Shown: positions 20,077-23,400 of the stretch, piece by piece
Numbering within the stretch: the first letter of the stretch is position 1
Layout of the letters: each line of letters starts with the position of its first letter
From: an uncultured Clostridia bacterium
GTDB lineage: Bacteria; Bacillota; Clostridia; Christensenellales; Borkfalkiaceae
NCBI GenBank assembly: GCA_947624225.1
Contig: CANQJF010000004.1
Coordinates: forward strand, 1 to 64,000
Direction of reading: 5' to 3'
DNA: 64,000 nucleotides
The notes under the pieces: generated by a model
Seen by the model: the letters and a program-made list of their open reading frames with translations, nothing else
What the model was told of the DNA's origin: nothing
The model's database searches: none
Position numbers and translations under genes: made by a program

Positions 20077-20283
20077 TCAGCCGTTGCAGCCGCAGCCGCC
20101 GAGGTTCCCGAGCAGGCGGGAGAGGGTACCGTTCTTGCACATGCAATATGCGAGGGCGACAAGAAGGGGCCATCCGCAACCTTGAAGCGCTCTCGAATTG
20201 AGCAGGTTGGTGCCGTTCGACCCGAGCAGGAGCGCGATGATGAGAATCCAAAGGCAGCTATTGCTATTCAAGCAACCGTTCAT
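20077..20283 (-). CDS. Small hydrophobic Cys/Gly-rich protein
   Basis: 68 residues beginning MNGCLNSNSCLWILIIALLLG, with a second hydrophobic run WPLLVALAYCMC and a GGCGCNG tail. Six cysteines are visible. A near-ideal ribosome-binding site, AAGGAGGAAGAACT, and a shared terminator support a real gene despite its size. It resembles the short YjcZ-like or chorion-like membrane peptides that some spore formers make, but the resemblance is compositional. Location and function are unknown. Confidence 0.7.
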   Translation of the reverse strand: MNGCLNSNSCLWILIIALLLGSNGTNLLNSRALQGCGWPLLVALAYCMCKNGTLSRLLGNLGGCGCNG

Positions 20284-20396: not shown

Positions 20397-20425
20397 TTGC
20401 CAAATAAAAAAAACTCTGTTATAAT
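20397..20425 (+). promoter_or_regulatory. Promoter of the ECF-coaX-hom operon leader
   Basis: TTGCCA (20397-20402) and TATAAT (20420-20425) are separated by 17 bases. Transcription should start near 20432, about 230-245 bases before the first gene. Confidence 0.8.
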
Positions 20426-20431
20426 AGATAG

Positions 20432-20660
20432 GACCCCCGCGGAAAGGAGCGGCACGCGCGCACGGTGCGGCCGTATCCGTTGAATTTCCCAAGGGCTCCC
20501 CTCGGCGCCCTGTAAGGGGAGCTCCGCCGATGCCTTTTCGGCTGTGACCGATTGAGGCTTCTGTTTGTGCTACTAAAATCGACGCGGGCGCGTAAGTAGG
20601 GGTTTCAAAACCCTTTCGGCACACGTTTTCTACGGATACCCTCGCCTAAGGAGGGATCCG
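20432..20660 (+). ncRNA. Structured 5' leader, candidate riboswitch
   Basis: The ~230-base GC-rich leader holds several hairpins (e.g. GGCTCCCCT with AGGGGAGCT; GCCGA-TGCCTTT-TCGGC; GGGTTT-CA-AAACCC). GTATCCGT (20473-20480) is perfectly complementary to ACGGATAC (20632-20639), while CGGATaCCCTC (20633-20643) is complementary to GAGGGATCCG (20651-20660). The two pairings share bases and exclude each other; the second buries part of an AAGGAGGG Shine-Dalgarno. I do not recognise a known riboswitch class, and a stand-alone small RNA is not excluded. This accounts for the 392-base gap. Confidence 0.55.
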
Positions 20661-20675
20661 ATGGAGGTAAAATTT

Positions 20676-21347
20676 ATGGAAGCGAAGAAATTCTTCTCCG
20701 CAAAGAACATCGCGTACACCGCGGTGCTTCTGGCTCTCGTGGTCGTGTTGCAAATTTGGGGCGGATTTATCCGAATCAGCGACACATCGCTTAGCTTTGT
20801 GCTTGTCCCCATTGTATTGGGAGCGCTCCTGCTCGGCATCGGGGGAGGCGCATTGCTCGGTTTATCCTTTGGCATTATCACGCTTGTGCAGGGGATCTTG
20901 GTCGATCCGTTTACGAGCACGCTGTTTTCAGCCTCCCCTGTCATGACGGTGCTCATTTGCCTCGTAAAAGGAACAGCCGCCGGGGTAATTCCCGCGGTCC
21001 TGTATCGGCTCATCAAGAACAAGAATCAAATCGTTGCGGTCTTTATCGCCGCCGCAAGCGCGCCGATTGCCAACACGGGGATCTTTATCTTGGGATGTCT
21101 CATGATCAGCGGGGCAATCGGGGCGAACTTCACGGCGACAGGCGCAATGTCTGAGGTGGTCTATTTCCTCTTCATCCTATGCGCGGGCACCAACTTCCTT
21201 GTTGAATTTGCCATCAACCTCGTGTTGGCTCCGGTCATCTACCGCGTGGTTGTCATTACTGAAAAATATATCCTGAAAAAACATGCGGGAAAAGGAAAGG
21301 CTGAACCTGCCCAACCCGCCGCACAATCCACGGAGCAAGATCAATGA
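20676..21347 (+). CDS. ECF transporter S component, probably pantothenate-related
   Basis: 223 residues from this start, with about six membrane helices, as in substrate-binding S components that join a shared EcfAA'T energising module (not encoded here). Features include KNIAYTAVLLALVVVLQIWGGF at the N-terminus and repeated Gly-rich helices. An ATG at 20661 is also possible, but the ATG at 20676 has GGAGG at 8-base spacing. The stop overlaps coaX by four bases, so pantothenate or a related CoA precursor is a reasonable inferred substrate. A hydrophilic Ala/Gln tail follows the last helix. Confidence 0.85.
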   Translation: MEAKKFFSAKNIAYTAVLLALVVVLQIWGGFIRISDTSLSFVLVPIVLGALLLGIGGGALLGLSFGIITLVQGILVDPFTSTLFSASPVMTVLICLVKGTAAGVIPAVLYRLIKNKNQIVAVFIAAASAPIANTGIFILGCLMISGAIGANFTATGAMSEVVYFLFILCAGTNFLVEFAINLVLAPVIYRVVVITEKYILKKHAGKGKAEPAQPAAQSTEQDQ

Positions 21348-22126
21348 TCATCTGCATCGATATCGGCAATACCAACATCAAATACGGCGTCTATGACGGC
21401 GACGCGCTCAAAATATCTTTCCGCGTTGCCACCGACCATAAAAAGACGTCCGATGAATACGGCTCCCAGCTCATCTCCATGCTCTCCGTTGCGGGTTTGC
21501 AGGCGGCGGACATCACGGGCGGGATCATCTCCTCCGTCGTCCCCAGCCTCGACTACACAATGGAGCACATGCTTGCCGTCTACCTCTCGGTGCGGCCCAA
21601 GCAGATCGGCCCCGGCATCAAGACGGGGCTCAAAATGCTTGCGGACAACGCCAAGGAAGTGGGGGCCGACCGCGTCGTCAACAATGTCGCGGCGCTCAAA
21701 AAATACGGTGCCGGGCGGCCCATCATCGTCGTGGATTTCGGCACGGCGACGACGTTCAACATCATCAAAGAGAGCGCTTTCATCGGGGGCGTCATCGCGC
21801 CCGGCATCAAGGGCTCTTTGGATAGCCTCATCAGCGGGACGGCCAAACTTCCCCGCGTGGAGATCGAGGCGCCCAAGAGCGTCATCGCGACCAATACCGT
21901 CACCAACATGCAGGCGGGCATCGTGTTCGGCTTTGCCGGTCTTGTCGAATACATCGTCAAGAAGATTAAGAATGAATTGGGCACCCAAGATGTGCTCACC
22001 GTCGCAACGGGCGGGTTTTCCGAAGTCATGGCCAAAGAGACCAAGTGCATCGACGTCATCGACAGGATGCTCACGCTCGACGGCTTGAAATATTTATATG
22101 AACTCAATTCGGAGGAAGGGAAATGA
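21344..22126 (+). CDS. coaX: Type III pantothenate kinase
   Basis: 260 residues; phosphorylates pantothenate, the first step of CoA synthesis. The ASKHA-fold phosphate-1 motif is CIDIGNTNIKYGVY, phosphate-2 is VVDFGTATTFNI, and GADRVVNNVAAL and GGVIAPGIKGSLDSL match family regions. Length is normal. The start codon overlaps the ECF gene stop (ATGA) and the end overlaps hom in the same way, showing tight translational coupling in a three-gene operon. Confidence 0.95.
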   Translation: MIICIDIGNTNIKYGVYDGDALKISFRVATDHKKTSDEYGSQLISMLSVAGLQAADITGGIISSVVPSLDYTMEHMLAVYLSVRPKQIGPGIKTGLKMLADNAKEVGADRVVNNVAALKKYGAGRPIIVVDFGTATTFNIIKESAFIGGVIAPGIKGSLDSLISGTAKLPRVEIEAPKSVIATNTVTNMQAGIVFGFAGLVEYIVKKIKNELGTQDVLTVATGGFSEVMAKETKCIDVIDRMLTLDGLKYLYELNSEEGK

Positions 22127-23400
22127 AGAAGGTGGGGGTATCCATCCTCGGGCTCGGTGTCGTCGGGGGCGGGACTTACAAGATCCTCAAAGAGCATGCG
22201 GAATTTTACCGCGCAACACAGTGTGTGGACATTGTCGTAGAGAGCGTTTTCGAGCGCAACAAGGAGCGCGTGGAAGCGCTCGGGATCCCGCCCGAGAAAC
22301 TCGCTTCCAACATTGCGGAAGTGGTCTTGGATCCCGACGTCAACATCGTTGTGGAATGTATCGGCGGCGTTACGGATGCGAAAGACTATGTGCTCGACGC
22401 GCTCAATGCGGGCAAGACGGTCGTCACATCCAACAAGGAGCTCTTCTGCAAGTATTGGCACGAACTCGAACGGGCGGCCAAGCACCACAATGCGGGGCTC
22501 TTCTATGAAGCCAGCTGTGTCGGCGGCGTGCCCATCATCCGTACCCTGCTCGACGGCCTGCAAGCAAACGAGATCTCCTCGATTGTCGGGATCATCAACG
22601 GAACGACCAATTACATCCTGACCGATATGGCCGAGAAGAAGATCTCCTATTCGGAGGCGCTGGCACAGGCCGTTGCGCTCGGCTATGCCGAGGCGGACCC
22701 GGCGGCGGACGTCGAGGGGTATGACGCGGCCTACAAGCTCTCCATCCTCGCCTCGCTTGCCTTTCATACAAAGGTGCCTTTCAATAAAGTTTTTCGGGAG
22801 GGCATCACCGACGTCTCCCCGACGGACATTGCAGACGGTGCGGCCCTCGGCTATGCGTTAAAGCTGCTCGCCGTCGGAAAGAACACGCCCGCCGGCATCG
22901 AGGTGCGCGTGCATCCCGCTTTTATCGAAAAGGGGCATCCGCTTGCGTCGGTCGGCGGGAGCTACAATGCGATCTTTGTCACGGGAGACAGCGTGGGAGA
23001 TATCATGCTCTATGGCCGCGGCGCGGGAGAACTCCCCACAGGCAGTGCGATCGTCTCCGACATCATCTATGCCGCGACGCACACCGAGCTGCACTATGCA
23101 ACATTCAAAAACACGGCCGCGCCCGATAAAAACGTCAACTTTGTCTCTGACTTTGCGAGCGCTTACTACCTCCGGATGACGGTGGCCGATGAGCCGGGCG
23201 TGCTCGCCAAGATCGCCGCGGTGCTCGCGCGCGGGAACATCTCCATCGATAAACTGACCCAGCGCGTCTCTGACGACGGCAAGGCGACGCTCGTTGTCGT
23301 GACGCACATGACGCACGAGGCGGCCGTCAAGTCGGCAGTCGCCAAGGTGACGGCAACCGGGCTCGCCGAAGTCAATTCGGTGCTCCGCGTGATCCTCTGA
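22123..23400 (+). CDS. hom: Homoserine dehydrogenase
   Basis: 425 residues; reduces aspartate semialdehyde to homoserine for threonine and methionine synthesis. A Rossmann motif GLGVVGGGTYKIL starts the protein; EASCVGGVPIIRTL and VEGYDAAYKLSILASLAF carry the catalytic and substrate regions. Residues ~345-425 are an ACT domain (YYLRMTVADEPGVLAKIA), suggesting feedback control by threonine or a related amino acid. It overlaps coaX by four bases. The operon ends at a strong terminator. Confidence 0.95.
   Translation: MKKVGVSILGLGVVGGGTYKILKEHAEFYRATQCVDIVVESVFERNKERVEALGIPPEKLASNIAEVVLDPDVNIVVECIGGVTDAKDYVLDALNAGKTVVTSNKELFCKYWHELERAAKHHNAGLFYEASCVGGVPIIRTLLDGLQANEISSIVGIINGTTNYILTDMAEKKISYSEALAQAVALGYAEADPAADVEGYDAAYKLSILASLAFHTKVPFNKVFREGITDVSPTDIADGAALGYALKLLAVGKNTPAGIEVRVHPAFIEKGHPLASVGGSYNAIFVTGDSVGDIMLYGRGAGELPTGSAIVSDIIYAATHTELHYATFKNTAAPDKNVNFVSDFASAYYLRMTVADEPGVLAKIAAVLARGNISIDKLTQRVSDDGKATLVVVTHMTHEAAVKSAVAKVTATGLAEVNSVLRVIL

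Follow-up and report, generated by a model that had tools for sequence, protein, structure and literature searches.

The window, as we call the whole stretch of 64,000 nucleotides analysed here, belongs to an uncultured Clostridia bacterium with a genome of 1.9 Mb (98% complete), and contains a short operon headed by the following promoter.

20397 to 20425, forward strand: promoter read from the sequence, with a -35 box TTGCCA (20397-20402), a 17-nt spacer and a -10 box TATAAT (20420-20425).
20676 to 21347, forward strand: S component of an ECF transporter, probably PanT, for pantothenate (PF12822, E 1.3e-11; best PDB chain 4rfs_S, E 3.7e-6).
21344 to 22126, forward strand: coaX, type III pantothenate kinase (NF009855, E 2.7e-93; PF03309).
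22123 to 23400, forward strand: hom, homoserine dehydrogenase of the same operon (NF004976, E 8e-146; PF00742).

The start of coaX overlaps the stop of the S-component gene by 4 nt, and the start of hom overlaps the stop of coaX to the same extent. Transcription would start near 20432, and a leader of about 245 nt lies between the promoter and the S-component gene. A divergent 68-aa hydrophobic peptide rich in Cys and Gly (MNGCLNSNSCLWILIIALLLGSNG...), matching no Pfam family, is encoded upstream of the leader on the minus strand (20077-20283), and its start region is apparently kept upstream of the leader in relatives, for example at L008.

Chain 4rfs_S is designated the PanT of L. brevis (PMC7755397). 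The profile of the S-component family scored FolT and PanT chains in the PDB alike, and because of this ambiguity the protein is assigned only as a probable PanT, with support from the 4rfs_S match, the neighbouring coaX, and the absence of PanB and PanC from the genome and of PanC from the genus. Neither PanB nor PanC was found in the window genome, which is therefore probably dependent on pantothenate uptake. PanC was found in none of the 103 genomes of the genus, 60 high-quality ones included, and vitamin B5 auxotrophy appears to hold across the genus. Judged by gene content, this is probably an operon for the uptake and activation of vitamin B5 in gut bacteria apparently unable to make the vitamin.

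With the S-component protein as query, 89 of the 103 genus genomes were matched, and upstream DNA was gathered at 88 genus loci via the downstream ECF gene. At every genus locus among those listed, coaX comes next in the same orientation. Sixty-two non-redundant leaders make up alignment A1, which was used for the covariation counts. The leaders share a conserved promoter (TTGCCA/TTGCAA ... TATAAT, recurring in nearly all of them) and then, in order, a first hairpin, a linker with a median length of 29 nt, and a second hairpin running into GGAGG. In the window these elements are placed as follows.

20446 to 20478, forward strand: hairpin 1, matching the structural descriptor given below, with outer pairs GGA/UCC, bulged A20475, 5 bp GCGGC/GCCGU (one G-U), bulged A20454 and inner pairs CG/CG.
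20628 to 20666, forward strand: hairpin 2, sequestering the Shine-Dalgarno sequence (from RNAalifold and pair counts), with a base UUCUA/UGGAG, bulged A20661, 5 bp CGGAU/AUCCG, bulged A20638, CCCUC/GAGGG and a loop at 20644-20650.
20663 to 20668, forward strand: Shine-Dalgarno sequence GGAGGT, mostly within hairpin 2, its GGAGG (20663-20667) lying on the 3' arm 8 nt before the ATG at 20676.

The leader is a real, conserved regulatory RNA, made up of two tandem hairpins with bulges and of pairing to the Shine-Dalgarno sequence. Both strands of each hairpin carry a bulged A, the two lying exactly 5 bp apart, and these A's are near-invariant among the genus relatives; the hairpin loops are variable (GNRA, UUCG and others). 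In hairpin 1, 11 of the 12 pairs have changed on both sides among the 62 relatives, while hairpin 2 is paired in 97.6% of cells in the 62 aligned leaders. For both hairpins jointly, 95.5% of cells are paired and double-sided changes are found in 18 of 25 pairs. The covariation score is 0.470, compared with 0.228 in shuffles, and none of 500 shuffles reached it. When one mismatch and a shorter inner stem were allowed, both hairpins were present in 86 of the 88 leaders, 74 of them having no mismatch.

The same layout was recovered with a descriptor independent of sequence (3 bp, A, 5 bp, A, 2 bp), which was written after the genus alignment and the consensus of the pan RNA motif (see below) had been seen, the order-wide and phylum-wide sets not being used for the writing. 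All 87 leaders searched contained at least one match and 52 contained two, against 0.2 and 0 in shuffles. Only a spacing of k=5 rose above shuffles in the genus; k=3 and k=4 remained at or below shuffle level, k=6 and k=7 gave no matches, and tandem bulges of other letter pairs were not found in the genus leaders by the descriptor search. The 64 kb contain a single instance of the tandem double-A-bulge pattern, at the leader (A20454, A20475, A20638 and A20661), where a tandem scoring model whose training set included six genus sequences gave 50.5 compared to a maximum of 21.4 elsewhere in the window.

Folding of the window sequence agrees with this arrangement, with predicted probabilities of 0.973 for the core of hairpin 2 and 0.964 for hairpin 1, and the leader folds better than chance (z = -2.38). 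For exactly 20432-20676, the RNAfold minimum free energy structure is arranged otherwise and includes some long-range pairing; the addition of 14 nt makes hairpins 1 and 2 the minimum free energy structure. The flanks of hairpin 1 (A1 columns 1-25 and 62-80) also tend to pair with each other as a possible outer helix, with an own score of 16.1 against a mean of 13.3 and a maximum of 14.2 in 50 cross-paired controls, which suggests an extra helix enclosing hairpin 1.

The GGAGG is nearly invariant in the genus relatives, and unguided RNAalifold carried hairpin 2 through it, pairing UCUR with YGGA. In the window, the predicted unpaired probability is 0.00-0.34 over GGAGG and 0.85 at the last U. 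In 73 of 87 leaders, the accessibility of the Shine-Dalgarno hexamer was lower than when the upstream sequence was shuffled (mean 0.18 vs 0.32). Hairpin 2 is thus predicted to cover the Shine-Dalgarno sequence as the default fold.

This architecture is that of the pan RNA motif (RF01749), a feature the preliminary description had missed. The pan motif has two conserved bulged A's, occurs mostly as tandem hairpins and is found at pantothenate genes (Weinberg et al. 2010, PMC2864571); the original description covered panB/C/D operons only (PMC2864571). It has been an orphan candidate since 2010, and in the literature found, no regulator or ligand of the RNA was named. The Rfam consensus reads uGG-gcgGU(A)UC..GA-ACcgc(A)CC for one hairpin and CuG-CCUgG(A)UCc..gGA-CcGGG(A)CaG-AaGG for the other. 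The leader and pan thus both show, twice over, a bulge on the 3' strand nearer the base, 5 bp and a bulge on the 5' strand, with the consensus then continuing into AaGG. They also share a position 5' of pantothenate or CoA genes, in the leader of the transcript, and a hairpin 2 that adjoins or overlaps the Shine-Dalgarno sequence. At k=5, the dominant spacing there, the descriptor matched 21 of the 30 best Rfam pan hits.

The two differ in that the stem sequences of the leader have diverged beyond Rfam's reach, and in that the leader heads uptake and kinase genes (S component-coaX-hom) rather than panB/C/D. Unlike pan, hairpin 2 of the leader base pairs directly with GGAGG, and the window linker holds a 0.12-kb repeat insertion. 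At the Rfam gathering threshold (36.2 bits), the pan model had no match in the window, genus or order, the best score being 29.2 bits in family f19, and at E<=10 it had none in the window or its genus relatives. No relevant match to any Rfam family was found at gathering or at E<=10 in the window, relatives or order loci, so that no known unrelated RNA sits at the site. Leaders of other vitamin S-component genes carry THF, TPP and FMN riboswitches; their architecture is unrelated, and the leader had no Rfam match to any of them.

Searched blind with the Rfam pan model, 151 genomes of the order gave seven matches at E<=1, all below threshold, and three of these (L117, L120 and L121; 25.5-29.2 bits) lie directly before a membrane protein-coaX operon. 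R1, a covariance model trained on the genus leaders, found 13 further leaders beyond the genus (E<=2e-4), each of them heading a coaX operon. Two weak R1 matches in the order (L149 and L150) were judged by context to be chance. Of 80 stretches upstream of coaX, taken from members of the order that lie outside the window's family, 26 contained a match to the tandem descriptor, compared with 0 on the reverse strand and 0, 0 and 1 in three shuffled sets. Hairpin 2 in these 26 cases mostly abuts GGAGG, 0.55-0.95 kb before coaX, and some of the hairpin 1 partners in cases with long gaps may be chance. In several order cases hairpin 1 is near the pan consensus, such as GGCGGU(A)UC..GAACCGC(A)CA in L252. 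When these order-wide variants were aligned, MAFFT misplaced the 3' arms of hairpin 1.

Different S-component-like membrane proteins, unmatched by the window protein in tblastn and in two cases lacking a Pfam hit, lie between the RNA and coaX at L117, L138 and L139. Other genera keep the RNA although the S-like protein before coaX differs, which links the RNA more closely with the CoA pathway than with any single transporter.

Over-threshold pan RNAs occur in 122 of 349 genomes of the phylum, and most of the 40 pan loci inspected lie upstream of pantothenate-synthesis genes. Six over-threshold pan RNAs (L186, L199, L202, L212, L218 and L222) precede an S-component gene and coaX within the fetched stretch, so the operon type of the window is also headed by RNAs that Rfam itself recognises; at two more (L204 and L216) the S gene was seen downstream in the fetched stretch, and sub-threshold examples precede S-component operons at L195 and L203. 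At L195 (sub-threshold) and at L199 and L212 (over threshold) the pan RNA heads a birA-S-component-coaX operon, which connects BirA, the biotin ligase/regulator, with genes for pantothenate uptake, and birA homologues lie downstream of panD at L187, L196, L197, L208, L209 and L213.

R1 recognised no pan RNA in the wider phylum. Its matches there outside the window had no window-type S, coaX or hom gene nearby and were taken as chance. Of 29 pan loci, a tandem model trained on the order variants hit the pan site at 12 and another site at 2, and picked no site at the other 15. With no pan RNA recognised by R1, homology with pan rests on architecture, context and a few intermediates, and common ancestry is likely rather than proven. 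The leader is very probably a pan-type element. It scores below the Rfam threshold and heads genes other than panB/C/D, and for these reasons we file it as a divergent pan-type variant and not as a member of RF01749. The pan architecture is thereby extended to a large group of uncultured Clostridia, at pantothenate uptake and kinase genes where Rfam had missed it, and over-threshold pan RNAs are seen before (birA-)S-component-coaX operons elsewhere in the phylum.

The explanation that best fits the whole, and in which we place considerable confidence, is that a divergent tandem pan-type RNA controls translation of the PanT-like-coaX-hom operon. By default hairpin 2 would be folded and the Shine-Dalgarno sequence of the S-component gene hidden. 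When CoA (or pantothenate) is plentiful, a trans-acting factor would recognise the bulged-A pairs on both hairpins and, once bound, lock hairpin 2 and turn off translation of S component-coaX-hom, the 4-nt overlaps carrying the effect on to coaX and hom. When CoA is short, the factor would leave, and the weak, G-U-containing base of hairpin 2 would open to ribosomes. We infer what is sensed, in which direction control runs and what the factor is; that translation is repressed when CoA or pantothenate is sufficient seems reasonably likely. Since PanC is missing from all 103 genus genomes, PanC cannot serve as the regulator, and the signal should be pantothenate or a later compound of the pathway.

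The factor is quite probably a protein rather than a ligand, and would more probably be a dimeric RNA-binding protein than a small molecule. A protein is favoured over a compact aptamer because the sites are tandem two-hairpin ones, the loops vary and linkers of 23-153 nt are tolerated. A true riboswitch, in which CoA, dephospho-CoA, phosphopantothenate or pantothenate itself binds to the tandem bulged-A hairpins and stabilises hairpin 2, is unlikely, though conserved unpaired A's at fixed spacing, the pathway-specific gene context and the small two-hairpin layout would suit one. In genomes lacking PanC, no intermediate of pantothenate synthesis can act as the signal. Against it, four A's are very few conserved unpaired nucleotides for an aptamer, and the variable loops and stretching linker speak the same way. 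The guanidine-II (mini-ykkC) riboswitch, with two short tandem stem-loops controlling the downstream gene, offers a likeness for such ligand binding; its hairpins are thought to kiss via their loops, whereas in the leader it is bulged A's within the stems that are conserved, and the loops differ between relatives. The simple dimeric structure of pan has itself been judged suggestive of a protein site (Weinberg et al., PMC2864571), and a 2022 review, which we also count against a riboswitch, lists CoA among the fundamental molecules without a validated riboswitch class.

That the pan-type tandem hairpins as a whole, the leader together with Rfam pan, directly sense CoA or some phosphorylated derivative of pantothenate is rather improbable. 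If they did, they would make up a riboswitch class of wide distribution for a cofactor still lacking a validated one, in a form serving uptake genes in organisms auxotrophic for vitamin B5. As the signal should be pantothenate or lie downstream of it and PanC is excluded as regulator, the pan question becomes testable, with few ligands to try and about 90 natural variants at hand.

It is also improbable that the leader belongs to a new and unrelated family of leaders that sequester the Shine-Dalgarno sequence and have converged on the bulged-A layout at CoA genes. Such convergence would account for the failure of the Rfam pan model to score the leaders and of R1 to find classic pan RNAs. It would have to reproduce, however, an identical layout in both hairpins, down to the strands of the bulges, the 5-bp spacing and the tandem arrangement. 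The same type of operon is also found under over-threshold pan RNAs, sub-threshold pan matches occur in the same order, and of the 14 pan loci at which the order-trained tandem model picked any site, 12 gave one overlapping the Rfam pan match.

The leader had been described before as a candidate riboswitch with mutually exclusive pairings, in which a long-range helix of GTATCCGT (20473-20480) with ACGGATAC (20632-20639) competes with a local hairpin of CGGATACCCTC (20633-20643) with GAGGGATCCG (20651-20660) covering AAGGAGGG (20648-20655). All of these strings are present, and the local hairpin is real and conserved, being only the upper part of the longer hairpin 2 with its two bulged A's. 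The long-range helix is coincidental. In the 62 aligned leaders its covariation score is 0.110 vs 0.114 for shuffles, 384 of 500 of which reach the score, and it is paired in 83.2% of cells vs 83.5%; its two outermost pairs fail in 22 and 30 leaders, and constrained folding gives it a probability of 0.015 in the window. In L107 and L063 hairpin 2 has become CAGAC/GUCUG and CAGAC/GUUUG, and the upstream long-range partner has not followed. Conserved mutually exclusive structures, the mark of metabolite riboswitches, were not found for this helix, the alternative that was tested. The complementarity arises because both hairpins use GGAU/AUCC-type arms. Hence an allosteric riboswitch, with GTATCCGT paired to ACGGATAC in one state and the Shine-Dalgarno hairpin free to form in the other, has next to no likelihood: the exact 8-bp complement in the window and the frequency of UAUCC and CGGAUA among relatives speak for it, but the lack of covariation, the low probability, the failing outermost pairs and the changes in L063 and L107 that are not followed upstream all tell against it. 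AAGGAGGG is not supported as the ribosome-binding site: it falls within the loop and the upper arm of hairpin 2 and lacks conservation, and the conserved Shine-Dalgarno sequence is the GGAGG at 20663-20667. What finds support in the earlier interpretation is that the leader is structured, stands before an ECF S-component-coaX operon and acts in cis on access to translation signals, with pantothenate or CoA as the relevant pathway.

The length of the window leader was also explained by sequence that the preliminary description had not recognised as foreign to the relatives.

20501 to 20624, forward strand: insertion derived from interspersed repeats, between the two hairpins (from repeat copies and linker lengths).

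The window linker (153 nt) is the longest of the genus set, in which lengths of 23-153 nt occur. We regard the long central part of the leader as a repeat-derived insertion, absent from relatives, because its segments have copies elsewhere: 20501-20546 on five other contigs of the same genome and also in G014, 20546-20593 once, on another contig of the same genome, and 20598-20624 in repeats of G010 and G024. Both hairpins are intact on either side of this insertion of about 0.12 kb. That the leader is a constitutive structure or repeat debris with no regulatory role, as the interspersed repeats of the window copy might suggest, is highly implausible in view of the strong covariation, the near-invariant bulged A's over about 88 genus leaders and the hairpins left intact by the insertion. 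The inserted sequence is itself a mosaic of interspersed palindromic repeats of the GGCGCCCTGTAAGGGGAGCTCCGCC type, with several copies in the genome and eight matches in G014.
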